A stretch of 58,442 nucleotides of DNA from an uncultured Lactobacillus sp. (GTDB lineage Bacteria > Bacillota > Bacilli > Lactobacillales > Lactobacillaceae). Made by a program: the position numbers and the translations under genes. This document shows positions 1,783 through 17,437 of this stretch, one piece after another. The notes beneath the pieces are model-generated. The model saw only the letters and a list, made by a program, of their open reading frames with translations. It made no database searches and was not told the origin of the DNA. The stretch is from the NCBI GenBank assembly GCA_947565635.1, contig CANOGU010000014.1, positions 1 to 58,442 of the forward strand, written 5' to 3'. Position 1 is the first letter of the stretch. Each line of letters starts with the position of its first letter.

Positions 1783-4392
1783 ATGGTGCAAGATAAAAAG
1801 GCTGAAAAAGAAAATAAAGCAATCTATGTAAATAAAATGATTGATAGCTATGTTGAAAAGGCACATAATGCCTTGGATGAAATGGCTAATTTTAATCAAG
1901 AACAAGTTGATAAAATTTGTGAGGCTATTGCAAGTGCTGGTGAACAAAACAGTTATTTGTTAGCTAAGATGGCAGTTGAAGAAACTGGCCGTGGAGTAGT
2001 GGAAGATAAGACTATAAAAAATATGTTTGCTAGCGAAAATATTTGGAACAGTCTTCGTCATGAAAAAACGGTTGGCGTGATTGAAGAAGATAAAGAAAAG
2101 CAATTAATTAAAATTGCAGAACCAAAAGGTGTTATAGCTGGTGTAACACCTGTTACTAACCCAACTTCAACTGTAATTTTTAAGGCTATGCTTGCATTAA
2201 AGACTAGAAATGCTATTATTTTTGGTTTTCACCCACAAGCACAAAAGAGTTGTGTTAAAACTGGTGAAATTATTCGTGAAGCCGCAATTAAAGCCGGTGC
2301 TCCTAAAGATGCTATTCAATGGATTGAATATCCTAGCCTTGAAGCAACTAGTACGTTAATGAACCATCCAAACGTTCAAACTATTTTGGCTACTGGTGGT
2401 CCTGGAATGGTTAAGGCTGCTTATTCATCAGGAAAACCTGCTATTGGTGTGGGTCCTGGTAATGGTCCATCATATATTGAAAAGACTGCAAATATTCCGG
2501 AATCTGTATATGATATTGTTTTATCTAAGACTTTTGATAACGGAATGATTTGTTCTTCTGAGAACTCTGTTGTAGTAGATGAAGATATTTACAATAAAGT
2601 AAAGGAAGAATTCAAGTCTTGGAATTGTTACTTCTTGAAGCCAGATGAAATTAAGAAGTTTGAAGAGAAATTCATTGATCCTAAGAGAGGAACAGTTGCT
2701 GGTCCTGTTGCAGGTCGTTCTGCCTATCAAATTGCAAAATTATGTGGTGTAGATGTACCAGAAGATACTAAAGTAATTATCGCTGAATATAAGGGAGTAG
2801 GTAAAAAGTATCCTTTATCTGCTGAAAAACTTTCTCCAGTATTTACTATGTATAAAGCTAAGGATCACGAAGATGCTTACAAGATTTGTACTGATCTTCT
2901 AAACTATGGCGGTCGTGGTCATACTGCTGGTGTTCATTCTCAAGATGAAAAAGTAATTGATGACTTTTCAATGAAGATGGATGCATGTCGTATTTTGGTA
3001 AATTCTCCGGCTTCAGTTGGTGGTGTTGGTGATCTTTACAATAATATGCTTCCTTCACTTACTTTAGGAACTGGATCTTATGGTGCAAACACATTCTCAC
3101 ATAATATTGGTGCTAGAGACTTGCTAAACATTAAGACAGTTGCAAAACGTCGTGACAATATGCAATGGATTAAGGTACCGAAGAAAACTTATTTCGAACA
3201 TAATGCGGCAAATTATCTAAAGCATATGCCAGATGTTGAAAGATTTTTCATTGTGACTGATGAAGGCGTAGCAAGTAAATATATTAATGAAATTACTGAT
3301 ATCATTAGTCAACGTCGTGGTAAGAAGAGCTATGAAGTTTTCCAAGCAGTAACGAAAGATCCAGATACCGATATCATTGCTGATGGAGTTCATAGAATGA
3401 ATATCTTTAAGCCTGATGTAGTTATTGCTGTTGGTGGTGGCTCAGTAATGGATGCTGCCAAGGCAATGCGTTTATTTTATGAAAATCCAGATATGAGTTT
3501 TGAAGATGCTTATTCAAAATTTCTAGATATTAGAAAAAGAACAGTAAGATTTCCAAAATATAATGCCATTCAATTAGTATGTATTCCAACTACTTCGGGT
3601 ACTGGTTCAGAAGTATCTCCATTTTCAATTATTAAAGATACTAAAACGGGTATTAAACATACTCTTTGTGATTATTCTTTAAATCCAGATGTTGCAATTG
3701 TTGATGACCAATTTGTAGAAACTATGCCTAAAGAATTGATTGCTCGTTCAGGGTTTGAAGCATTAGCTCATGCAGTTGAAAGTTATGTTTCAACAATGGC
3801 CACTGACTTTACTCGTGGTTGGTCAATGGAAGCTATTAAATTGATTTTTGAAAACTTAGAGAAGTCATATAATGGTGATCAAAGTGCAAGAAGTAGAATG
3901 CACAATGCTGCTACCCTGGCTGGTATGGCATACGCAAATGCATTCTTAGGAGTAGGTCATGCAATTGCTCATACTGAATCATCTGAATTTGGTGTTCCAA
4001 GTGGCTTAAGTGATGCAATTGCAATGCCATATGTAATTAAATTTAATTCTAAGAAGCCTAGAAAACTTGCTATGCGTCCGCACTATTCAACTTTTAGAGC
4101 AGATAAAGATTATGCAGAAATTGCACGTAGTTTAGGTTTAAAGGGAGACACTACTCAAGAATTAGTTGATGCCTTAATTAAGAAGGTTGTTGAACTAGGT
4201 CATGGCGTAGGAATGAAGTTAAGTCTTAAAGCTAATGGAGTTAATGAAACAGATTTCAATAATAAGATTGAAAATATGGCTATTGAAGCTTATGGTGATC
4301 AAAATGTTGTAACTAATCCTTCTGCTTTATTAATTAGTGAAATTAAGGAATTAATGAAAGAAACTTATGCAGGAAAGGGAATTGAAGCTTAA
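1783..4392 (+). CDS. adhE: Bifunctional acetaldehyde-CoA/alcohol dehydrogenase AdhE
   Basis: The enzyme converts acetyl-CoA to acetaldehyde and then ethanol, using two NADH, in heterolactic or mixed-acid fermentation. It is a full-length fusion of 869 residues. The N-terminal half is a CoA-acylating aldehyde dehydrogenase with the catalytic cysteine in GMICSSENS (about residue 257). The C-terminal half is an iron-dependent alcohol dehydrogenase with the NAD loop VAVGGGSVMDAAK (written here as AVGGGSVMDAAK) and metal-binding histidines in FEALAHAVESY and GVGHAIAHTES. The ATG follows AGGAGG by a normal spacing. The upstream region carries a cre box and Rex-like sites, which fits control by sugar and redox state. 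Downstream lies a decayed insertion sequence, whose end supplies the nearest terminator. Confidence 0.97.
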   Translation: MVQDKKAEKENKAIYVNKMIDSYVEKAHNALDEMANFNQEQVDKICEAIASAGEQNSYLLAKMAVEETGRGVVEDKTIKNMFASENIWNSLRHEKTVGVIEEDKEKQLIKIAEPKGVIAGVTPVTNPTSTVIFKAMLALKTRNAIIFGFHPQAQKSCVKTGEIIREAAIKAGAPKDAIQWIEYPSLEATSTLMNHPNVQTILATGGPGMVKAAYSSGKPAIGVGPGNGPSYIEKTANIPESVYDIVLSKTFDNGMICSSENSVVVDEDIYNKVKEEFKSWNCYFLKPDEIKKFEEKFIDPKRGTVAGPVAGRSAYQIAKLCGVDVPEDTKVIIAEYKGVGKKYPLSAEKLSPVFTMYKAKDHEDAYKICTDLLNYGGRGHTAGVHSQDEKVIDDFSMKMDACRILVNSPASVGGVGDLYNNMLPSLTLGTGSYGANTFSHNIGARDLLNIKTVAKRRDNMQWIKVPKKTYFEHNAANYLKHMPDVERFFIVTDEGVASKYINEITDIISQRRGKKSYEVFQAVTKDPDTDIIADGVHRMNIFKPDVVIAVGGGSVMDAAKAMRLFYENPDMSFEDAYSKFLDIRKRTVRFPKYNAIQLVCIPTTSGTGSEVSPFSIIKDTKTGIKHTLCDYSLNPDVAIVDDQFVETMPKELIARSGFEALAHAVESYVSTMATDFTRGWSMEAIKLIFENLEKSYNGDQSARSRMHNAATLAGMAYANAFLGVGHAIAHTESSEFGVPSGLSDAIAMPYVIKFNSKKPRKLAMRPHYSTFRADKDYAEIARSLGLKGDTTQELVDALIKKVVELGHGVGMKLSLKANGVNETDFNNKIENMAIEAYGDQNVVTNPSALLISEIKELMKETYAGKGIEA

Positions 4393-4444
4393 CTCTTTTT
4401 CTCATACCTCATTTGAAATATTAATATGAATTCGCACATAAAAT

Positions 4445-4477
4445 GTGTCTGGGAAAAAACTAACTCCTAGACCATAA
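4445..4477 (+). repeat. Left terminal inverted repeat of the IS element
   Basis: This 33-base repeat matches the reverse complement of 5994-6026 except for one base (C against T at position 28 of the repeat). Confidence 0.85.
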
Positions 4478-4478
4478 A

Positions 4479-4518
4479 AAAGAACGATGATTTCCATTTG
4501 GATTTCATCGTTCTTTTT
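4479..4518 (+). terminator. Terminator hairpin inside the left IS end, serving adhE
   Basis: AAAGAACGATGA (4479-4490) pairs with TCATCGTTCTTT (4505-4516), followed by T bases. It is the first hairpin after adhE, so it probably ends that transcript and also shields the transposase from readthrough. Confidence 0.65.
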
Positions 4519-4588
4519 CTATACTTTTAGTTTCTTCCTTGATATCATTAAATCACCACAAAATAAAAACAAAAAGGTGGAAACTAAT

Positions 4589-5919
4589 ATGTACAAAGAT
4601 TATAACACAGGTCAAACAGCTTTAAGACTCAATTTGGATTTTGCCATTCCCAGCAATCACTTAGCTAATGCTATCAGCTGGTTTGTGGATTCAGTTCTAG
4701 AAGAGTATTTTCAGACAGAAAGATTGAGCTGATGCTTTTGACTGACCAGCAAAAGATTTCATATCATACTATCAATAACTTCAGATCCAGCAGCCATGCC
4801 AATGAATTGGTTAAAAAAACTTTATCTACTTTACCAATCTATTGGTGGATGAGGGGCTAATCAATGAAGAGACTATTTTTATTGATTACACTAAAATTGA
4901 AGCGGATGCCAATCGCTATACTTTTGTCTGGTGCAAGGCAGTTGAAAAGTTTCATGATAAGCTTAAGGGACAGGCAGTTGAGGCTTACGATGAGCTGATA
5001 GCCCAAGAAGTAGTCAAGGAAATGAACAAAGAAAAAGTTCAAACCAGCCAAGGACGAGTAGAGCTTGCTCAAGAAACTGAAGCTGAAATTGAAAAGCTGA
5101 CTAAAGAAATTGAGTAAAAGCCTCAAGCCATTCCTGAAGGCTCGTCCAGAAAAGCAAGAAGACGCGGACTTAAAAAAGCTGCTCCATAAACTAAGAAAAG
5201 ACTATGTTCCTCGAATGAAGAAATATGAAAAAGCAGAAAAAACATTTGCTGGTCACAACAGCTATTCTAAAACAGACCATGATGCGACTTTTATGCATAT
5301 GAAGGAAGACTACATGAAAAATGGTCAGCTTAAGCTTGGCTACAATATCCAAGTAGCTACTACAGATCAATATGTAGTCGATTACGCTTTGTCCCCTAAT
5401 CCAACAGATTTCAAAACTTTAGAGCCGTTTTTAGATCAAATGACCATGTTGGATAAATTCGATAAGATCGTATCCGATACTGGCTAAGACAACGAATATA
5501 ATTGCTCAATGCTGGAAGAAAAATATCTAGATAAGAAGTATTTTATTCTCTACACTATGTATAAAAAAGAACAAGGCAGAAAGTATAAAAATGATCCATC
5601 CAAGCTGAGCAATTGGTACTACAATGAAAAAGATGATTATTACATTGATCATCTTGGCGTTAGATTCAACTTAAAATATTATAGCCAGCGTCCAGTACGC
5701 TATAATCCTAATTGGCAATATTTAAAAGAAAAAAAGAAGTTCTTCAAAGCGACAAACGCAAACCTATCTACGGTATGAGGAAATATGACGTAGAGCCAGT
5801 TTTTGGGCATTTGCGTACTTGGTATGCGCAGAACACATCTAAGAGGCAAAAAGAAAGTTGAAACAGATGTCGGAATAGCCTTCATGATGAATATAAACAA
5901 ATTTTGGAACAGAAGATAG
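4589..5919 (+). pseudogene. Broken IS1182-family transposase
   Basis: The remnant begins with MYKDYNTGQTALRLNLDF, the typical N-terminus of IS1182-type transposases (DUF772-like domain), from the ATG at 4589 after AAGGTGG. The reading frame stops near 4731 and resumes in other frames at about 4842-5117, 5110-5487 and 5509-5778, with a last piece to 5919 ending in a INKFW stretch. Part of the N-terminal domain after residue 47 is missing, as is a block between the pieces ending near 5680 and starting near 5695. The DDE-type core pieces ([29 protein letters not shown]) are recognisable, but the substitution of the residue after FIDYTKIEAD-type motif and the stops make it inactive. Confidence 0.8.
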
Positions 5920-5948
5920 AAGACCGTTTTTGTTTAGTGCTAAAAGAA

Positions 5949-5993
5949 AAAAGGACAATCAAAACTCAATTGAGAATTTTGATTGTCCTTTTA
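5949..5993 (+). terminator. Terminator hairpin inside the right IS end
   Basis: A long, almost perfect stem from AAAAGGACAATCAAAA to TTTTGATTGTCCTTTT, flanked by A and T runs, so it can act in both directions. On the minus strand it may also end the transcript of the gene at 6080-6505. Confidence 0.7.
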
Positions 5994-6026
5994 TTATGAT
6001 CTAGGAGTTAGTTTTTTCCCAGACAC
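5994..6026 (-). repeat. Right terminal inverted repeat of the IS element
   Basis: The reverse complement of the left repeat at 4445-4477 with one mismatch. Confidence 0.85.
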
Positions 6027-6079
6027 TTTTCTTAATGTGTATGTAAATTAAATATTTAATTTATCGATTATAAATTAAA

Positions 6080-6505
6080 TTAGTTTAACTTACCGGCTTT
6101 CTTCAAGATGTCTTGAGCCTTTTCAAGATAGTGATGTTCGGTTCTAAAGGCATCAATGTCACCACCGTTGAAGTCGTTTAATTTAGCAAGCTTGTCATCT
6201 AATTCTTCAAAGTCCTTCTTTAAATCGTTGATAACAGGTTCTTCTTCTTGTTCATAGACGTAGTGATTTTCGGTTGAATCTTTAGGACCTTCACCCTTGA
6301 ATTGTTCGATCTTGTCTTCGTCTTTGTCGACTTTTCTTGCGTGCTTAAGAATTGATTTAATATCCTTAATTGTTTCATGTTGAGCGGTGCGATGTTTCTT
6401 ATCATCAATACTATCTTCAATCTTTGTTAAGTGACCTTCTGCATCTGAAATCTTCTTAGCGATTCTATCTAATGCCTTGAGTTCTCTTTTTGCATAATCT
6501 GTCAT
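6080..6505 (-). CDS. Small, highly charged helical protein of unknown function
   Basis: I do not recognise a named family. The 141-residue product is almost entirely charged and predicted helical, rich in K, D and E with regular leucine/isoleucine spacing (for example LDRIAKKISDAEGHLTKIED), which suggests coiled coils. It has no signal peptide, membrane segment or cysteine, so it is probably a soluble cytoplasmic protein. A strong AGGAGG about 9 bases ahead of the ATG supports expression. It stands alone between the IS remnant and a divergent broken gene. Small proteins of this kind are common in lactobacilli, and a stress or DNA-associated role is only a guess. Confidence 0.6.
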   Translation of the reverse strand: MTDYAKRELKALDRIAKKISDAEGHLTKIEDSIDDKKHRTAQHETIKDIKSILKHARKVDKDEDKIEQFKGEGPKDSTENHYVYEQEEEPVINDLKKDFEELDDKLAKLNDFNGGDIDAFRTEHHYLEKAQDILKKAGKLN

Positions 6506-6774
6506 AACAATATACCTCCTAAAATCTTTCTATTAACTTAATCATCCTTATTATAAAATCTAATAAGTGTAGTTTCAAGAATAAGGCGTTATTTTATGAA
6601 ATAACCGTATAGGTTTGAAATATCTAATAATATTATAAAATTAAGTACAATTATTTAATTAAATGAAATTAGCTGATAGTATATGCGTTATTTTTATTTC
6701 ATGCTTTAACTGTATGTTTCTACATAAATATACAGTAATTTTCATTTGATGTGCTGTATTTATAAGAAAGAAGC

Positions 6775-7404
6775 GTGGAATTAATGTTTAGAGAAAATGC
6801 AAAAAATATTCATGAAAAACTTTTAAAAGAAAATGATCCAGATGTATGGGAAAGAATTAGTCATTTTACTTTTGAAGAAGTACAAGATGATGTTGACTTA
6901 CCAAATAAAACAAAGTTACTTTCTAATTTAGTATGTTTATTGGGGATGCAAGGACTAGAAGAATTTTGCTTAATGTTTCCAGTTGCCTTGTCTAATGTTG
7001 TCAGCCCTATAGAAGCAAAGGAAGTTGTTTATCAAGCAATAGATTATTTAGGGTTAGGACGGGTAATGCCATTTTTTAAAGTAATGAATAATATATTACT
7101 TGAACGTGGTGTGAGATTATCTTTGTCAAGGCAAGCCACTACTACAATGGATAATCTTCTTGAAAAAGGCGAAGAAACCCAAATGAGACTGTTTGGTCCA
7201 CAAATGAAAGATTTTGCTAAAAAGGAATTATTAATAGATGGTTAGTAAATAGCTGTTTTGGAGATTATTACACTAGAAAAGGGTTAGATGATAAAGAGCG
7301 CGAAATGATAACTTTTTTATTTAGCTGCTCAAGGCGCATGTGAATCACAATTATTGGCACATGCAAAAGCTAATGCAATTAATGTTATTAACCAAGTAAA
7401 ATAG
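6775..7404 (+). pseudogene. Broken double carboxymuconolactone-decarboxylase-like gene
   Basis: The first 156 codons, from the GTG at 6775 (or the ATG at 6784), form an intact CMD/AhpD-like half, with the helical stretch PNKTKLLSNLVCLLGMQGLEEF. Translation stops at 7245. The second half continues in another frame from about 7221 (a NRWLVNSCFGDYYTRKGL stretch, then DDKEREMITF), shifts again near 7320 (LAAQGACESQLLAHAKANAI) and ends at 7404, shorter than a full domain. The ancestral protein probably had two CMD domains. CMD proteins are often peroxidase- or lactonase-like, but the CxxC of AhpD is not seen here. Both shifts lie near A or T runs, so sequencing error is possible, though the missing C-terminal tail argues for true decay. 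Confidence 0.65.
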
Positions 7405-7425
7405 ATTATTTATAGTTAAATAACT

Positions 7426-7459
7426 GCACTGAAATTTTAGAGATTTCAGTGCTTTTTAT
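7426..7459 (+). terminator. Terminator ahead of the Shango-like operon
   Basis: GCACTGAAAT pairs with ATTTCAGTGC, followed by TTTTTATT. It insulates the next operon from the broken CMD gene. Confidence 0.8.
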
Positions 7460-7522: not shown

Positions 7523-9403
7523 ATGAATACCGATGAACTATTGAGCTACGCGATAAGACATTTTGGAAGAAATAGTATTAGTAAAGTTAATAATAACGCT
7601 AACATAATTGCTTTTAGTTCACCGATTACTAAAAAATGGTTTGCTATTTTAAATTTAGATCCTAAAAGTAAAAAATTAAATCTTAATTGTGGTGAATTTT
7701 CGGAAACAATTAAAGATCTGCCTGGGTTTTCAACTGCTTCTTTAGTGAAAGACGATAATTGGGTTGAAGTTAGTTTGCTTTTAAGCGAGCAAAAAATAAA
7801 GCAAGCGTTGGAATATGCTTTTAAAGTTGTATTAATGACAAATAAAAAGAATAATCCAGAAAAATTAATTTATATTCCTGATGCTAATCAAAATGATGAA
7901 AAAAATGTATATCATGAACAAAAATTAGATTTTAAGAATTGGAAAAAATCGTCACGTTTTGTTGAAAGAAAAAATAAATTTACTGAAGATAAAATTGATT
8001 TAAATTTTGAAGAAACTCAATCTGTACCTAAAGAAATTAAAGAAATGATTAAGTCGTATCAGTATTCATTAAATGGAGCTATTAGAAGAGAACAAAATTT
8101 TTATTCTCAGGGGAAATTAATGGCTGATTATGAAGATGACTATGATCGAAAGCAATCATTCTTAAGATATTATCCAACGTATCATGACTTAACTGTGGGC
8201 CAGGCTCGGACATACTTTACTTGGCGAACGAAAATAAGACACAATATTTATGAAAAAAATTCAGATTCATATGCTTATATATATTTATATGAACTACTGA
8301 ATGGAATTGGAGTTAAAAATTCGCAAGAAGGATTAGAGAGGCTAATTAGTTTTAATAAAAATTATGCTCAAAAATTTTCTTCAGAAATGGGGGCTTATAT
8401 TGAAAGATGGATTCGTGATTATCTTATTTTTTATAATATTGATTCGAAAACTTATGACTCATTTATTAAGGAACGCGATAAAGATAAAAAATATGAACAA
8501 TTACTATATCCGCAAAATTTTTCTGAACATGAAGTTGTTACTAGTTTAATAAGGCTATCGAACTATAAAATTACTAATTGTCCTTTATATAAAAAGGATG
8601 AAGAAAAATTTGAACATTTATTGGCTTTAATTTGGCAGCAAATTTTAGATTTGAGACAAGATGGATTTGATTTTTTTACTAATTACATTGCGTATAAAAA
8701 TCAAATGACAGTTCAGCTTTTTGCTGCTGCTGTTTTTAATCATAATTTGATTTCAAAAACGAATAGTTATGAAGTTGATCAAATTAGAAAGTATTTTTAT
8801 GATGAAGAAAAGAAAACTTGGTATTGTGAATCTTATTGGGGGTTAGCTGGTCAAAAAAGTATTGTAGGAAATTTATTGCATGAAGTTGATCGTGAAGTAA
8901 GACAAAGTTTTCATTTAGGAAGAAACTTAAAGCCTAGAAAAATTGAAAAACATTATCTTCAGGCGATTAAAGATGGAATAAAAGAATATCAAATAGAAGA
9001 ACAGAAGCTAAATCATCCTGAACTAGAAATTAATTTATCTCAATTATCTATGATTAGAGAAGATGCTGCAGATACCCGAGATAGCTTGTTGACCGAAGAA
9101 GAGCTTAAAGCTGAACAAGAAGAGAAGACTCAGGTTGAAGAAAATTCTGTAGATAATGTTAAAAAAGATTATGGTTTAAGTAAGGAAGAAGTAACCACAG
9201 TAATAATGCTTTTAAATGGAGAAGATCCAAAGAAGTATCTTAAAGAAAATCACTTAATGGCAGCAATTGTAATCGATAATATAAATGAGAAAATGTTTGA
9301 TGAAATTGGAGACAATGTAGTTGAGTTTATAGATGATGCACCTATACTTATTGAAGATTATCGGGAAGAGTTAGAAGATATGTTTTTGAAAGGAAATAGT
9401 TAA
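7523..9403 (+). CDS. sngA: TerB-N/TerB-C domain protein with N-terminal MmcQ/YjbR-like domain (SngA-like)
   Basis: A 626-residue soluble protein. Residues 1-105 resemble an MmcQ/YjbR domain (KKWFAILNLD; a GEFSETIKDLPGF region; NWVEVSLL). Residues about 155-370 match TerB-N: the YEDDYDRKQSFLRYYPTYHD stretch followed by ARTYFTWRTKIR and YLYELLNGIGV. Residues about 430-620 match TerB-C, with LSMIREDAADTRDSLL near 505. These domains are known from predicted stress and phage-defence systems that pair them with a P-loop ATPase and a helicase. Those are exactly the next two genes, 4 and 7 bases apart. I therefore infer it is the TerB component (SngA) of a Shango-type system. The biochemical role of TerB-N/C is not established. 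The gene is visibly AT-rich compared with the helicase gene. Confidence 0.75.
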   Translation: MNTDELLSYAIRHFGRNSISKVNNNANIIAFSSPITKKWFAILNLDPKSKKLNLNCGEFSETIKDLPGFSTASLVKDDNWVEVSLLLSEQKIKQALEYAFKVVLMTNKKNNPEKLIYIPDANQNDEKNVYHEQKLDFKNWKKSSRFVERKNKFTEDKIDLNFEETQSVPKEIKEMIKSYQYSLNGAIRREQNFYSQGKLMADYEDDYDRKQSFLRYYPTYHDLTVGQARTYFTWRTKIRHNIYEKNSDSYAYIYLYELLNGIGVKNSQEGLERLISFNKNYAQKFSSEMGAYIERWIRDYLIFYNIDSKTYDSFIKERDKDKKYEQLLYPQNFSEHEVVTSLIRLSNYKITNCPLYKKDEEKFEHLLALIWQQILDLRQDGFDFFTNYIAYKNQMTVQLFAAAVFNHNLISKTNSYEVDQIRKYFYDEEKKTWYCESYWGLAGQKSIVGNLLHEVDREVRQSFHLGRNLKPRKIEKHYLQAIKDGIKEYQIEEQKLNHPELEINLSQLSMIREDAADTRDSLLTEEELKAEQEEKTQVEENSVDNVKKDYGLSKEEVTTVIMLLNGEDPKKYLKENHLMAAIVIDNINEKMFDEIGDNVVEFIDDAPILIEDYREELEDMFLKGNS

Positions 9404-9407
9404 TAAA

Positions 9408-10739
9408 ATGGCTAATCAAAAGAGAAAAGTTCCTAAAAGAATAGCTCAGACTATTTTAAGCTCTTTAAAAGGAGGAGTAGTTCCAAGAATCGGCCTGCCA
9501 TATATTACAGTAGGACGAAAAGCAGAAATTGAAGCTTTATTACATGATGTGGAATTGATTGGAGAAGGAGGAGCTTCTTTTAGATTTATCGTAGGGCGGT
9601 ACGGTTCTGGTAAAAGTTTTTTACTTCAGACAATTAGAAATTATGTAATGGATAAGAATTTTGTTGTAGTTGACGGAGATTTATCACCAGAAAGACGTTT
9701 GCAAGGTGGAAAAGGACAAGGATTGGCTACTTATCGAGAATTGATTCAAAATCTTTCTACTAAAACTCGACCAGAAGGAGGAGCCTTAACTTTAATTCTT
9801 GATCGTTGGATTAATTCAATTCAAATGCAAGTTGTAGCAGACACAGACTTAAATGAAGGTAGTCCGGCCTTTGAAGAGGCTGTTAATAAAAAGATTTATG
9901 TGGTAATTTCAAGTTTATCCGAATTAGTACATGGTTTTGATTTTGCTAAATTACTCGAGATGTATTATCAAGCTTATGTTAATGCTGATGAAGAAACTAA
10001 GGCTAAAGTTGTTAAATGGTTTAGAGGTGAATATGCTAATAAAACTCAAGCTAAAAAAGAATTAGGAGTAGATATTGTAATCTCGGATGATGATTGGTAT
10101 GAATATTTGAAACTGTTTGCGTCATTCTTTAGACAAGCAGGATATACAGGTCTGATGATTATGATCGATGAATTAGTAAATATTTATAAGATTCCCAACA
10201 GCATTAGTCGTCAGTATAATTATGAGAAAATATTAACCATGTATAATGATGCTCTTCAAGGAAAAGCAAAGTATCTTGGCGTTATTATGTGCGGTACGCC
10301 GCAAGCTGTTGAAGATAAAAGAAGGGGAGTATATTCCTATGAGGCTTTACGTTCTCGTTTAGCTAGTGGAAAATTTTCTAAAGCTGGAAATCGTGATATG
10401 TATGCCCCAGTTATTAAACTTGATCCACTTACTCCAGAAGAAATGCTTGTTTTAACTGAAAAACTCGCAGATATGCATGCTAATTTATACGGATATGAAA
10501 AAGTAATCACCGAAAATGATTTAGAAAAATTTATTAAGATTGAATATTCACGTGTAGGTGCATCTTCTAACATTACACCACGTGAAATTATTCGTGATTT
10601 TATTGAACTATTAGATATTGCTTGGCAAAATCCTCAGACTGATATTGAGCAACTACTTAATTCGGATAAATTTTCTTATACTGAGTCAAATGTAGTTTCA
10701 GATGATAAATCTGATAATTTCGCTGAGTTTAGAATTTAA
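9408..10739 (+). CDS. sngB: P-loop ATPase of the DUF2791/BrxD type (SngB-like)
   Basis: A 443-residue ATPase that starts 4 bases after the previous stop, with AAAGGA overlapping the end of that gene, so the two are translationally coupled. The Walker A motif is GRYGSGKS (about residues 63-70) and the likely Walker B is GLMIMIDELVNIYK (about 247-260), with a glutamate after the aspartate. The N-terminal part, with IGLPYITVGRKAEIEAL and VVDGDLSPERRLQG, is typical of the DUF2791 family. That family includes BrxD of type 2 BREX and the ATPase of Shango. In BREX it also sits beside an Lhr-like helicase, but no other BREX gene (pglX, pglZ, brxC) is present here. Confidence 0.8.
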   Translation: MANQKRKVPKRIAQTILSSLKGGVVPRIGLPYITVGRKAEIEALLHDVELIGEGGASFRFIVGRYGSGKSFLLQTIRNYVMDKNFVVVDGDLSPERRLQGGKGQGLATYRELIQNLSTKTRPEGGALTLILDRWINSIQMQVVADTDLNEGSPAFEEAVNKKIYVVISSLSELVHGFDFAKLLEMYYQAYVNADEETKAKVVKWFRGEYANKTQAKKELGVDIVISDDDWYEYLKLFASFFRQAGYTGLMIMIDELVNIYKIPNSISRQYNYEKILTMYNDALQGKAKYLGVIMCGTPQAVEDKRRGVYSYEALRSRLASGKFSKAGNRDMYAPVIKLDPLTPEEMLVLTEKLADMHANLYGYEKVITENDLEKFIKIEYSRVGASSNITPREIIRDFIELLDIAWQNPQTDIEQLLNSDKFSYTESNVVSDDKSDNFAEFRI

Positions 10740-10746
10740 GTGAAAA

Positions 10747-12969
10747 ATGGATATTTTTACACGTTTTGCTCCTTTTATTCAAGATTATATTTATGAACAT
10801 GATTGGCAAAAATTACGTTCAATTCAAGTTGGAGCAGCAGAAGCTATTTTTAATAGTCAGGATAATGTATTATTGGCAGCTTCAACAGCTTCGGGGAAAA
10901 CGGAAGCTGCTTTCTTTCCTATTCTGACTGAACTTTATGAAGATCCTTCTAAATCGGTTGGAGTGTTGTATATTTCGCCATTAAAAGCGTTGATCAATGA
11001 CCAATATGAGCGTTTGAGCGACCTTTGCCAAGAGGTTGACATTCCAGTTTGGCGCTGGCATGGTGAGGTAGCTCAGACTCAAAAACGAAAATTGCTTAAG
11101 CATCCTTCTGGAATCTTACAAATTACTCCAGAATCTTTAGAGTCATTAATTATTAATAAGCATATGGATATCCCGAATTTATTTCATGATCTAAGATATG
11201 TAGTCATTGATGAATTACATTCTTTCTTAAGATCAGATCGTGGGGGACAAACTTTTTGTCTGATTGAACGCTTGTCTAAAATGGCGGGAGTTGATCCGAG
11301 ACGTATTGGACTTTCGGCCACAATTGGAGATACGAAAGCAGCCGCGGAATTTTTAGGTGCTGGTTCAAGGCGTAAGACAATTGTTCCTAAGTCAGAAGGT
11401 GGCGGTCAAGTTTGGCGTCTATCAATGGAGCATTTTTATGATAATGGACCACAAGCTGATAATAGTGACTTTGATCCAGCGCAACCAGTTTTAGATGAAA
11501 AAAGTGATCAAGCCCCTGAGATGGCTGATCCGTCAATGGCTTATATTTTTGAACACACACGTGGAAAGAAATGCCTAGTTTTTACCAACAGTAGAGAAGA
11601 ATGTGAAGCTGTTTGTCAAATTTTAAGACAATATTGTGAAGTAAGACATGAACCGGATCGTTTCCTAATTCACCATGGTAATTTGTCCGCAGCTTATCGC
11701 CAAACAGCAGAAGCTGAGATGAAGGATGAGGATTCATTTATGACTACTTGTGCTACAGCGACACTTGAGTTAGGAATCGATATTGGAAAACTAGAGCGAG
11801 CATTTCAAATTGATGCACCCTTTACTGTCTCTAGTTTTCTGCAGAGAATGGGTAGAACTGGCCGACGTGGAAATCCATCTGAAATGTGGTTTGTAATGCG
11901 TGAATCACATCCTGAATCTCGTGCCATGCTTCCAGAAACTATCCCTTGGTCCTTACTTCAAGGTATTGCCTTGGTTCAGCTTTATTTGGAAGAAAAATGG
12001 TTAGAGCCACCAGTGCCGAATAGATTACCATATAGTTTGCTTTATCATCAGACAATGTCTACTTTAGCGTCAAATGGAGAAATGACACCAGCAGAGTTAG
12101 CTTCTAGAGTATTGCCCCTTCGTTATTTTCATAATGTTAGTCAAGATGACTATCGCATATTGCTCCGTCATCTAATAAAAGAAGATCATATTCAGCAAAC
12201 AGAAAATGGTGGCTTAATTGTTGGTTTAGCTGGGGAAAAAGTAGTTAATAATTTCAAGTTTTATGCTGTTTTTCAGGAAAATGAAGAATATTCGGTTAAA
12301 TCTGAGTCTGAAGAATTGGGTACTATTGTTAAACCACCGCCGGTAGGCGATAAAATTGCTATTGCTGGCCGTGTGTGGGTAGTAGAAGATGTTGATCGTA
12401 AAAGGCATCAAGTTTATTGCCATCCAGTTAAAGGGAGAATTCCTGCATATTTTGGTGATGTAGCAGGTGATATTCAACCTAAAATTTTACAGAGAATGAA
12501 AAAGATTTTAAGCGAAAAGATAAAATATCCGTATTTAATGGAGCATGCAGTAGCGCGTTTGAGAGAAGTACGAGATACCGCAAACACTTCGGGGATGCTA
12601 GAAAGTAATTTAATTAATTTAGGTGGAAAAATGTGGTGTCTTTTTCCTTGGACTGGAACCTATGCTTTCTTAGCATTAGAAAGATTAGTTAAGATTAAAT
12701 GTGCTAAACGGGTAGGATTAAGAGGCTTTAATTCTAGTCGTCCATATTTTATGCAATTTGCAATGGAGGTAAACAAGGATGAGTTTCTAGAAATTTTAAG
12801 AGAAGAAGCAAATAAAGACTTTGATCCTTTGGAGCTAGTTTATCCGAAAGAAGTTCCTGTTTTTGATAAGTACGATGAGTATTTACCAGATGAATTAGTA
12901 AGAAAGGAATTCGCACAAAGTATTTTAGATATTAAAGAAATGAAAAATTGTGTGAATAATTTAAGATAA
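10747..12969 (+). CDS. sngC: Lhr-like superfamily 2 DEAD/DEAH-box helicase (SngC/BrxHI-like)
   Basis: A 740-residue ATP-dependent helicase. Motif I is STASGKTEAA (about 44-55), motif II is DELH (near 154), motif III is SATIGD, and motif VI is QRMGRTGRRG (about 365-374). The middle and C-terminal parts (VGDKIAIAGRVWVVEDVD; a late PYFMQFAMEV stretch) fit Lhr/BrxHI helicases, which act on nucleic acid duplexes. It begins 7 bases after sngB with no clear ribosome binding site of its own, so coupling is likely. It ends the operon at a strong terminator. It is shorter than housekeeping Lhr, and its place beside the ATPase and TerB protein points to anti-phage defence. All core motifs appear intact. 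Confidence 0.85.
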   Translation: MDIFTRFAPFIQDYIYEHDWQKLRSIQVGAAEAIFNSQDNVLLAASTASGKTEAAFFPILTELYEDPSKSVGVLYISPLKALINDQYERLSDLCQEVDIPVWRWHGEVAQTQKRKLLKHPSGILQITPESLESLIINKHMDIPNLFHDLRYVVIDELHSFLRSDRGGQTFCLIERLSKMAGVDPRRIGLSATIGDTKAAAEFLGAGSRRKTIVPKSEGGGQVWRLSMEHFYDNGPQADNSDFDPAQPVLDEKSDQAPEMADPSMAYIFEHTRGKKCLVFTNSREECEAVCQILRQYCEVRHEPDRFLIHHGNLSAAYRQTAEAEMKDEDSFMTTCATATLELGIDIGKLERAFQIDAPFTVSSFLQRMGRTGRRGNPSEMWFVMRESHPESRAMLPETIPWSLLQGIALVQLYLEEKWLEPPVPNRLPYSLLYHQTMSTLASNGEMTPAELASRVLPLRYFHNVSQDDYRILLRHLIKEDHIQQTENGGLIVGLAGEKVVNNFKFYAVFQENEEYSVKSESEELGTIVKPPPVGDKIAIAGRVWVVEDVDRKRHQVYCHPVKGRIPAYFGDVAGDIQPKILQRMKKILSEKIKYPYLMEHAVARLREVRDTANTSGMLESNLINLGGKMWCLFPWTGTYAFLALERLVKIKCAKRVGLRGFNSSRPYFMQFAMEVNKDEFLEILREEANKDFDPLELVYPKEVPVFDKYDEYLPDELVRKEFAQSILDIKEMKNCVNNLR

Positions 12970-12970
12970 A

Positions 12971-13012
12971 AAATAACCATTCAGTATCCACTAACTGAAT
13001 GGTTATTTACTT
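12971..13012. terminator. Bidirectional terminator between the Shango-like operon and galE
   Basis: AAATAACCATTCAGT (12971-12985) pairs with ACTGAATGGTTATTT (12994-13008), with A and T runs on the two sides. It serves the helicase gene on the plus strand and galE on the minus strand. Confidence 0.85.
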
Positions 13013-13018
13013 TATTAT

Positions 13019-14011
13019 TTACTTATCTTCGTAACCCTTTGGGTGGGTCTTGTGCCAGTTCCAAGCAGTTGCGATAACGTCATCAACGTTTTCATGCTTT
13101 GGTTTCCAGCCTAAAATTTTACGAGCTTTGCTTGAGTCTGCAACTAAGGAATCAGGGTCTCCGCCTCTTCTTGGTCCAATAGTGTAAGGGATGTCAATAC
13201 CAGTAACTTTCTTGGCAGCTTCAAGAATTTCTAAGTTAGAGTATCCTTGAGCAGTACCTAGGTTGAAGACATCAGACTTGTTAGTTTCCATTACATGCTT
13301 AAGAGCTAAGATGTGAGCGTCAATTAAATCTTCAACTTGAACATAGTCACGGACATTGGTACCGTCTTTAGTGTCGTAGTCGTCACCAAAGATAGTAAAG
13401 TTACCGTCACCAGAAATAGCACTCTTCAAGATGTTAGGAATTAGATGAGTTTCGGGACCGTGATCTTCACCAATTGAACCGTCACTTGAAGCGCCTGCTA
13501 CGTTGAAGTAGCGAAGAGCGATTGACTTGATACCATCAGCTTTGTCAGCCCAGTGCATAATCTTTTCCATCATCATCTTAGTTTCACCGTATGGGTTGAT
13601 TGGATCAAGTGGTGTATCTTCAGTAATTGGTAAAGTCTTTGGAATACCGTAAGTTGCAGCACTTGATGAGAAGACCAAATACTTAACTTTAGCGTCCTCC
13701 ATTGCTTGAAGTAATGAAATCATACCAGAAACATTGTTGTCATAGTACTTCAAAGGCTTTTTAACAGATTCAGGAACTAAAGAGTAAGCTGCAAAGTGCA
13801 TTACAGCATCAATATTTTCATCACGTAAGATCTTGCTTATTAAATTAGTATCTTCGATGTCGCCTTGATAAAATTTAGCTCTCTTGTCAACAGCCTTTCT
13901 GTGGCCAGTGTAAAGAGAATCTAAAACGACAACATTGTTTCCTTCTTCAATTAACTTTCTAACAGCGTGAGAGCCGATATAGCCAGCTCCACCGATAACT
14001 AATACTCGCAT
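13019..14011 (-). CDS. galE: UDP-glucose 4-epimerase GalE
   Basis: The enzyme interconverts UDP-glucose and UDP-galactose (Leloir pathway and supply of galactose for surface polymers). It is a 330-residue extended short-chain dehydrogenase. The NAD-binding motif GGAGYIG is at residues 7-13, and the catalytic pair is YGETK with Tyr141 and Lys145, preceded by the conserved SSSAATYG. The start follows AAGGAG on the minus strand. It is a single gene here, not beside galK or galT, as is common in lactobacilli that also use it for cell-envelope sugars. Confidence 0.96.
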   Translation of the reverse strand: MRVLVIGGAGYIGSHAVRKLIEEGNNVVVLDSLYTGHRKAVDKRAKFYQGDIEDTNLISKILRDENIDAVMHFAAYSLVPESVKKPLKYYDNNVSGMISLLQAMEDAKVKYLVFSSSAATYGIPKTLPITEDTPLDPINPYGETKMMMEKIMHWADKADGIKSIALRYFNVAGASSDGSIGEDHGPETHLIPNILKSAISGDGNFTIFGDDYDTKDGTNVRDYVQVEDLIDAHILALKHVMETNKSDVFNLGTAQGYSNLEILEAAKKVTGIDIPYTIGPRRGGDPDSLVADSSKARKILGWKPKHENVDDVIATAWNWHKTHPKGYEDK

Positions 14012-16759: not shown

Positions 16760-17437
16760 ATGAATAAACTATTTGAAAAGAAACCATGGCTTGGTTTCAC
16801 GGAAGATAAAGTGTTCGGAGAAGTAATGTTAAATAAGGGATTTTGTAAACACGTTTTACAGGGAATTTTACCAGAACTGTCAATTGATAAAATTTATTTT
16901 CCGCATAAGCAAGAAGAAATTAACGGTTCTGAACACTATAGTCAAAAAGATGTACGCTTAGACATTTTAGTTGAGGATCATAATCATAATCTTTATAACA
17001 TTGAAGTTCAGACTACTAATACTGATGATATCGCTAGACGAATGCGGTATTATGCTGCAAAAGCAGATCAAAGATATACTTTGAAGAAGGGCAGTACATA
17101 TCGAAACTTGAAGAATGTATATATAATTTTTCTTTGCACATTTACACGAACTGAAAAAAGACCAATTAGAAATAAATATTTAACTATAAATTCCAATGGA
17201 ATTCCAAATGGTGACGAAACGAAAACTTTGCTTAATTTGGTGAAGTTGATGAAGAATTTACTTGTATCTGGCGATACATATTTTGATATAGCACAAAATA
17301 GAATTAAAGAAACTAATAGTGATGAGAATTGGAGGGATATGATTATGGATTATGAAACTAGATTGTTAGAGTGCGAGCAAGATTATGGGGATAGTTTCTC
17401 TAAAGAACAATTGAAGGAGTTTCTGAGAGAAAATTAA
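16760..17437 (+). CDS. Rpn family recombination-promoting nuclease (PD-(D/E)XK), shortened
   Basis: A 225-residue protein of the Rpn/YhgA-like family, once called putative transposases and known as recombination-promoting DNA nucleases. The nuclease core is visible as KDVRLDIL with Asp68 and then NIEVQT with Glu82 and Gln84, a family variant of the PD-(D/E)XK centre. The N-terminal FTEDKVFGEVM block is also typical. It is shorter than the usual 270-300 residues: the segment after IIFLCTF lacks most of the conserved part that normally follows. It may therefore be a natural short form or an internally deleted relic. The ribosome binding site AGAGGGA precedes the ATG. The next gene starts 19 bases later. 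Confidence 0.75.
   Translation: MNKLFEKKPWLGFTEDKVFGEVMLNKGFCKHVLQGILPELSIDKIYFPHKQEEINGSEHYSQKDVRLDILVEDHNHNLYNIEVQTTNTDDIARRMRYYAAKADQRYTLKKGSTYRNLKNVYIIFLCTFTRTEKRPIRNKYLTINSNGIPNGDETKTLLNLVKLMKNLLVSGDTYFDIAQNRIKETNSDENWRDMIMDYETRLLECEQDYGDSFSKEQLKEFLREN

Follow-up and report, generated by a model that had tools for sequence, protein, structure and literature searches.

What system does a compact three-gene operon in the genome of an uncultured Lactobacillus sp. encode, and would it act against phage? The operon lies in a 58,442-nucleotide stretch of contig CANOGU010000014.1 of assembly GCA_947565635.1 (positions 1 to 58,442, forward strand); this whole stretch is referred to below as the window. 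A preliminary description had taken the operon for a Shango anti-phage system composed of a TerB protein, an ATPase and a helicase. Our comparisons agree: judged from its sequence, the operon is almost certainly a chromosomal member of Shango, with the genes sngA, sngB and sngC in that order. Shango itself is already known, and the new detail is an SngA protein that has a YjbR-like N-terminus and lacks a recognisable TerB core domain. We regard the operon as an ordinary Shango member with a mildly interesting SngA architecture.

All three proteins had the corresponding Shango model as their best PADLOC match (E-values in Table 1), and none fell into another family set. The first also matched Pfam TerB_N (2.3e-33) and TerB_C (7.9e-19), both above the Pfam cut-offs. 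The second was aligned over positions 3-439 of the 439-position SngB profile and matched PF10923 (BrxC_BrxD; 4.1e-169), while the third covered positions 5-719 of the 720-position SngC profile and matched Pfam DEAD (1.1e-30) and Helicase_C (2.7e-17). The resemblance of genes 2 and 3 to BrxD and BrxHI of bacteriophage exclusion (BREX), pointed out in the preliminary description, is real, as both proteins match those models, but at scores well below those of Shango. SngB scored 643 bits against its own model versus 167 bits for BrxD (a margin of 476 bits), and SngC scored 948 bits versus 433 bits for the best BrxHI model (a margin of 514 bits). As a yardstick, we ran an operon from an E. coli plasmid through PADLOC, which returned the same SngA, SngB and SngC assignments in the same order. 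The identification therefore holds on the PADLOC and Pfam assignments together with the same trio from the yardstick. The A-B-C gene order of the putative operon, read from the sequence, also matches Shango. The assembly that contains the window (79.6% complete) encodes a single SngB and a single TerB_N protein.

The three open reading frames (ORFs) are intact and run head to tail, spaced by 4 and 7 bases. This packing and the terminator-like hairpins at either end are as the preliminary description gave them, and the catalytic motifs that it listed for SngB and SngC were all found (Table 1). Within the Walker A motif of SngB, G63 and G66-S70 are invariant in all 12 aligned SngBs. Both flanking hairpins were listed on both strands, and theirs are the longest stems of a terminator scan that gave five sites in total, a number not above chance (4.0, standard deviation 2.1).

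Table 1. Coordinates of the Shango operon, its domains and motifs, and adjoining features in the window.
Feature	Position	Strand	Description
terminator-like hairpin	7426..7452	+	5' of operon; 12-pair stem, then T run
sngA	7523..9403	+	626 aa; YjbR-like + TerB_N + TerB_C; PADLOC SngA 1.8e-70
SngA YjbR/MmcQ-like domain, residues ~1-110	7523..7852	+	family-profile match to PDB 2kfp/3h9x
SngA TerB_N, residues 166-375	8018..8647	+	Pfam PF13208
SngA TerB_C, residues 486-618	8978..9376	+	Pfam PF15615
sngB	9408..10739	+	443 aa; P-loop ATPase, BrxC/BrxD family, called DUF2791 in the preliminary description; PADLOC SngB 7.5e-194
SngB Walker A GRYGSGKS, residues 63-70	9594..9617	+	read from sequence
sngC	10747..12969	+	740 aa; DEAD/DEAH helicase; PADLOC SngC 1.3e-285
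SngC motif II DELH	11209..11220	+	read from sequence
SngC motif VI QRMGRTGRRG	11842..11871	+	read from sequence
hairpin	12971..13008	both, terminator-like	separates convergent sngC and galE; 15-pair stem
galE	13019-14011	-	3' of operon, convergent with sngC

The Shango systems of P. aeruginosa PA14 and E. coli, as presented in the available text of PMC10250203, share with the window operon a TerB-family protein, an ATPase and a DEAD/DEAH helicase. The window operon stands out by its SngA, which, set against the SngAs of an E. coli and an Azospirillum plasmid, has a YjbR-like N-terminus and lacks a Pfam TerB core, and in that it is chromosomal, apparently solitary and set in a conserved Lactobacillus neighbourhood. 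The N-terminal assignment comes from the family: a profile of 35 SngAs, the window's included, matched PDB 2kfp/3h9x (PSPTO_3016) at 1.2e-13 over profile positions 1-114, and 20 of the 35 aligned members matched Pfam YjbR at E<=1 (best 8.1e-6). The TerB core PF05099, which is the domain listed for Shango in the part of PMC10952713 available to us, was matched by none of the 35 aligned SngAs, the window's among them, even at E-values up to 1. By contrast, the SngAs of the E. coli and Azospirillum plasmids have TerB_N, TerB and TerB_C and no Pfam YjbR match. The E. coli plasmid operon (CP088401.1; locus L167) shares the gene order, and its SngB is 39% identical to that of the window, but its 769-aa SngA is built in this other way. 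We considered a TerB core hidden between TerB_N and TerB_C and rejected it, as a profile alignment of the Lactobacillus-type SngA with the E. coli and Azospirillum proteins aligned only TerB_C. The earlier label of a TerB-N/C protein thus stands for the two named domains, and is to be amended by the YjbR-like N-terminus and the lack of a recognisable TerB core.

We do not treat the TerB core as required, because a Paenibacillus plasmid SngA consists of TerB_N and TerB_C only and yet keeps the three-gene order, and because the PADLOC SngA model accepts forms with and without the core. If the core is held to be required, the window operon should be called Shango-like rather than Shango. According to the available text of PMC7641849, YjbR homologues have a DNA-binding double-wing fold; the same text mentions YjbR-TerB fusions, citing Anantharaman et al. 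2012. These fusions have the domain pairing of the window SngA, and no tie to Shango is made in that text. Likewise, in the portions of the literature available to us, we found nothing tying YjbR/MmcQ to Shango or to phage defence.

Within the genus, the operon is not fixed. SngB was present in 32 of 75 Lactobacillus genomes, some of which are incomplete. Of the 32 copies, 27 share a neighbourhood, being preceded by adhE, the carboxymuconolactone decarboxylase (CMD) gene or pckA and/or followed by galE or the FAD oxidoreductase gene; the other five (L056, L057 and L060-L062) lie outside it. The gene order is adhE-CMD-Shango-galE in the window's own group, where pckA is elsewhere, and CMD-pckA-Shango in another Lactobacillus group, where galE does not adjoin, so the neighbourhood itself has been rearranged. 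In five genomes without SngB (G004, G007, G024, G035 and G043), galE and pckA adjoin, and we read this junction as the site without Shango, apparently empty. Decayed versions also occur. All three genes look broken in G044, and G030 has, before galE, a truncated sngA and a transposase gene with rve domains, which we take to be of the IS3 type, with neither sngB nor sngC.

The region upstream of the window operon (6775-7410) contains a shortened CMD gene at 6775-7245, encoding 156 aa versus 195-251 aa in eight relatives (Pfam CMD E-value of 0.0029, versus 7.5e-19 in L042). The operon had been described as sitting between decayed genes and galE; galE is indeed on the 3' side and this one gene is decayed, whereas the small ORFs at 4842-5487 had no Pfam match. 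Elsewhere in the window, positions 16760-17437 encode a 225-aa PD-(D/E)XK nuclease-family transposase (Pfam PDDEXK_2, 2.3e-13).

In a quick SngB tree, built without the broken SngB of G044, a 28-row branch united G063 with the 27 copies of the neighbourhood at a Shimodaira-Hasegawa-like approximate likelihood ratio (SH-aLRT) support of 86, below the 95 mark, and three off-site copies (G065, G072 and G052) stood apart from the rest. Pairwise identities followed those of the GatB marker (Mantel Spearman correlation of 0.68-0.72 over 29 of the 32 genomes, values that none of 999 permutations reached). From these data we infer that Shango arrived once and early at this site, descended mostly vertically and was lost repeatedly. 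The approximately unbiased (AU) test rejected a common origin for the SngBs of the whole genus (p = 2.3e-37), but the test says little, since L091, which was counted outside the group, is identical to the group member G065. The L091 record (JAEDAG010000002.1, titled Faecalicatena absiana), whose SngB is that of G065 contig C12, is probably mislabelled.

The three genes have not changed at the same rate. Compared with five close species, nonsynonymous divergence (dN) was 0.14-0.17 for SngA, 0.05-0.06 for SngB and 0.04-0.05 for SngC, so that SngA has a dN about three times that of its partners at similar synonymous divergence (dS; 0.85-1.55 over sngA, sngB and sngC). Mean pairwise identity over 29 genomes was 44% for SngA, 83% for SngB and 79% for SngC. 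SngA is thus the variable part of the system and is still under purifying selection (dN/dS 0.11-0.14). Its faster dN is what one would expect if SngA is the component in contact with phage.

Allele swapping by recombination was suggested by a GatB dS of only 0.16-0.27 in the same five species, versus 0.85-1.55 for Shango. We dropped this idea because the flanking permease, FAD oxidoreductase and aldo/keto reductase genes have dS values of 0.77-1.58 in these species. Other flanking genes have lower values (adhE, 0.64-0.75; galE, 0.53-0.72; a 141-aa gene, 0.16-0.52), which leaves allele swapping some room.

Beyond the genus, the SngA model matched 23 of 398 genomes sampled evenly across the phylum, one of them the window's own. 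Two long hits in this sample, L076 and L079 (ORFs of 1058 and 1031 aa in the sequence covered), are SngA-like TerB proteins that may belong to another TerB type and could be fusions with further enzymes. We then surveyed the best 80 SngB loci in named genomes. In 64 of these 80 loci, SngA, SngB and SngC followed one another in this order, never more than 250 bases apart. A wider gap separated two of the genes in 5 loci, SngC had no match in 4 (all with less than 1 kb left on the contig), and SngA had no match in 7, of which four are truncated where the contig ends. The SngB-SngC pairs of L121, L129 and L132 have about 8 kb upstream and no SngA match by profile; their first gene may have been lost or be very divergent. 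The A-B-C order was also found on E. coli, Paenibacillus and Azospirillum plasmids. A search of plasmid DNA and a search of phage proteins with SngB gave no match. More distant SngB relatives (<60% identity) occur in 691 plasmid records, including 449 from Klebsiella and 144 from Salmonella, and 542 of the records were typed as conjugative.

Several loci depart from the common form. A second, distant Shango-like group in Lactobacillales (L063, L064 and L065) has an SngB that is 33-35% identical, with a helicase adjoining; the protein before SngB has TerB_C in L063 and L065, with a weak TM2 match at its start in L065. In L102, from a gut metagenome-assembled genome, three genes lie between sngB and sngC (3783-6813): by eye, two putative DNA methyltransferases with DPPY motifs, followed by a 292-aa protein, maybe a restriction enzyme. 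The insert is possibly a restriction-modification set nested in Shango. In L140, a 310-aa protein that presumably resembles RhuM is encoded between sngB and sngC (3690-4622).

As to function, the available text of PMC10250203 reports that Shango, tested from P. aeruginosa PA14 and reported also in E. coli, lowers plating 10-100-fold for many, though not all, phages in the PA14 case and protects cultures. Among the superfamily 2 (SF2) helicases, SngC is grouped by PMC12278908, in the portion available to us, with BrxHI, DruE and DpdJ as a clade possibly devoted to defence. By analogy with the tested systems, the window operon very probably acts against phage or other mobile DNA, and we count its patchy presence and broken copies within the genus in favour of this reading. 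The explanation that best fits the observations overall is a chromosomal Shango anti-phage operon in which SngA would provide recognition and SngB-SngC the motor, and we consider it probable.

Some observations weigh against this explanation. Our literature search found no phage experiment on this operon or on any Lactobacillus Shango, and no paper dealing with a Lactobacillus Shango. In G061, the closest relative, sngA is interrupted by an in-frame stop at codon 433. A PADLOC scan of 18 of the 47 other window ORFs (those of at least 90 aa) found no specific defence gene: 15 had no match, and three matched only generic ATP-binding cassette, helix-turn-helix and PcrA-type helicase models. Within the ORFs scanned, the defence-island setting proposed in the preliminary description was not borne out; the operon looks solitary and long established at its site, and not like a piece of an island. 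Its dS lies within the 0.16-1.58 range of the flanking genes in the same five species, which points to a long resident rather than a recently mobile set. The fast change of SngA, purifying overall at the ratio given above, could also reflect weak constraint. Finally, Pfam YjbR matched the window SngA alone only at 0.17, below the cut-off, so that the domain call rests on the family profile.

The strongest competitor is a cellular operon for Ter-type stress or DNA repair, in which action against phage would not be the main role. The operon is largely inherited at one site with a dS inside the range of its neighbours, TerB domains are named for tellurite resistance, and SngC also matches a ligase-associated DNA-damage helicase model (1.4e-59). 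Nevertheless, 43 of the 75 genus genomes, some of them incomplete, gave no SngB, at least three genomes have broken copies, and in the text cited above this set of genes protects P. aeruginosa and E. coli; we consider this reading unlikely. A relic that looks intact but is inactive would fit the stop codon in G061, the truncated sngA beside a transposase gene in G030 and the broken genes of G044, but none of the window's three genes is shortened, their motifs are intact, and dN/dS against the five close species is 0.03-0.14, which makes a relic very unlikely.

PglZ is the hallmark of BREX. The window's operon shares with BREX a homologous ATPase and SF2 helicase, and a fragment or offshoot of BREX, with BrxD- and BrxHI-like proteins left from or working with such a system, would account for the BrxC_BrxD family membership of SngB and the BrxD and BrxHI matches, but it is already largely refuted and has hardly any probability left, given the lead of the Shango models, an SngB score of 165.9 bits against the NCBIfam BrxD cut-off of 350 (the BrxD equivalog score is not reached), a TerB_N/TerB_C protein as the first gene, and the absence of any PglZ match in the window's 79.6% complete assembly. 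The preliminary description had called the rest of BREX absent.

Under the Shango anti-phage explanation, recognition would fall to SngA, whose YjbR-like N-terminus would hold DNA; alternatively, TerB_N and TerB_C could allow it to sense some feature of infection. SngA would then engage the ATPase SngB and the SF2 helicase SngC, and these two would move along phage DNA, disrupt it and block replication. As Pfam recognised no nuclease domain in the three proteins, any cleavage would have to be the work of a host enzyme or of a site that escaped recognition. The partially available literature that we searched gave no mechanism for Shango, and we offer the sensor-plus-motor mechanism in this wording only tentatively. 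Similarly speculative, and to our minds somewhat doubtful, is the idea that the Shango of Lactobacillaceae and gut Clostridia forms a subtype, whose SngA, without a recognisable TerB core and with an N-terminal YjbR double-wing domain, might itself recognise DNA (or a modified or odd form of it) and pass it on to the SngB-SngC motor; in this scheme SngA would diversify fast and the motor would stay constant.

Lactobacillus offers a natural series for the study of the Shango mechanism, with intact, broken and apparently empty versions in one neighbourhood, and this series pairs a constant ATPase and helicase with a fast-changing SngA. For dairy and gut lactobacilli, Shango is a defence gene set worth annotating.

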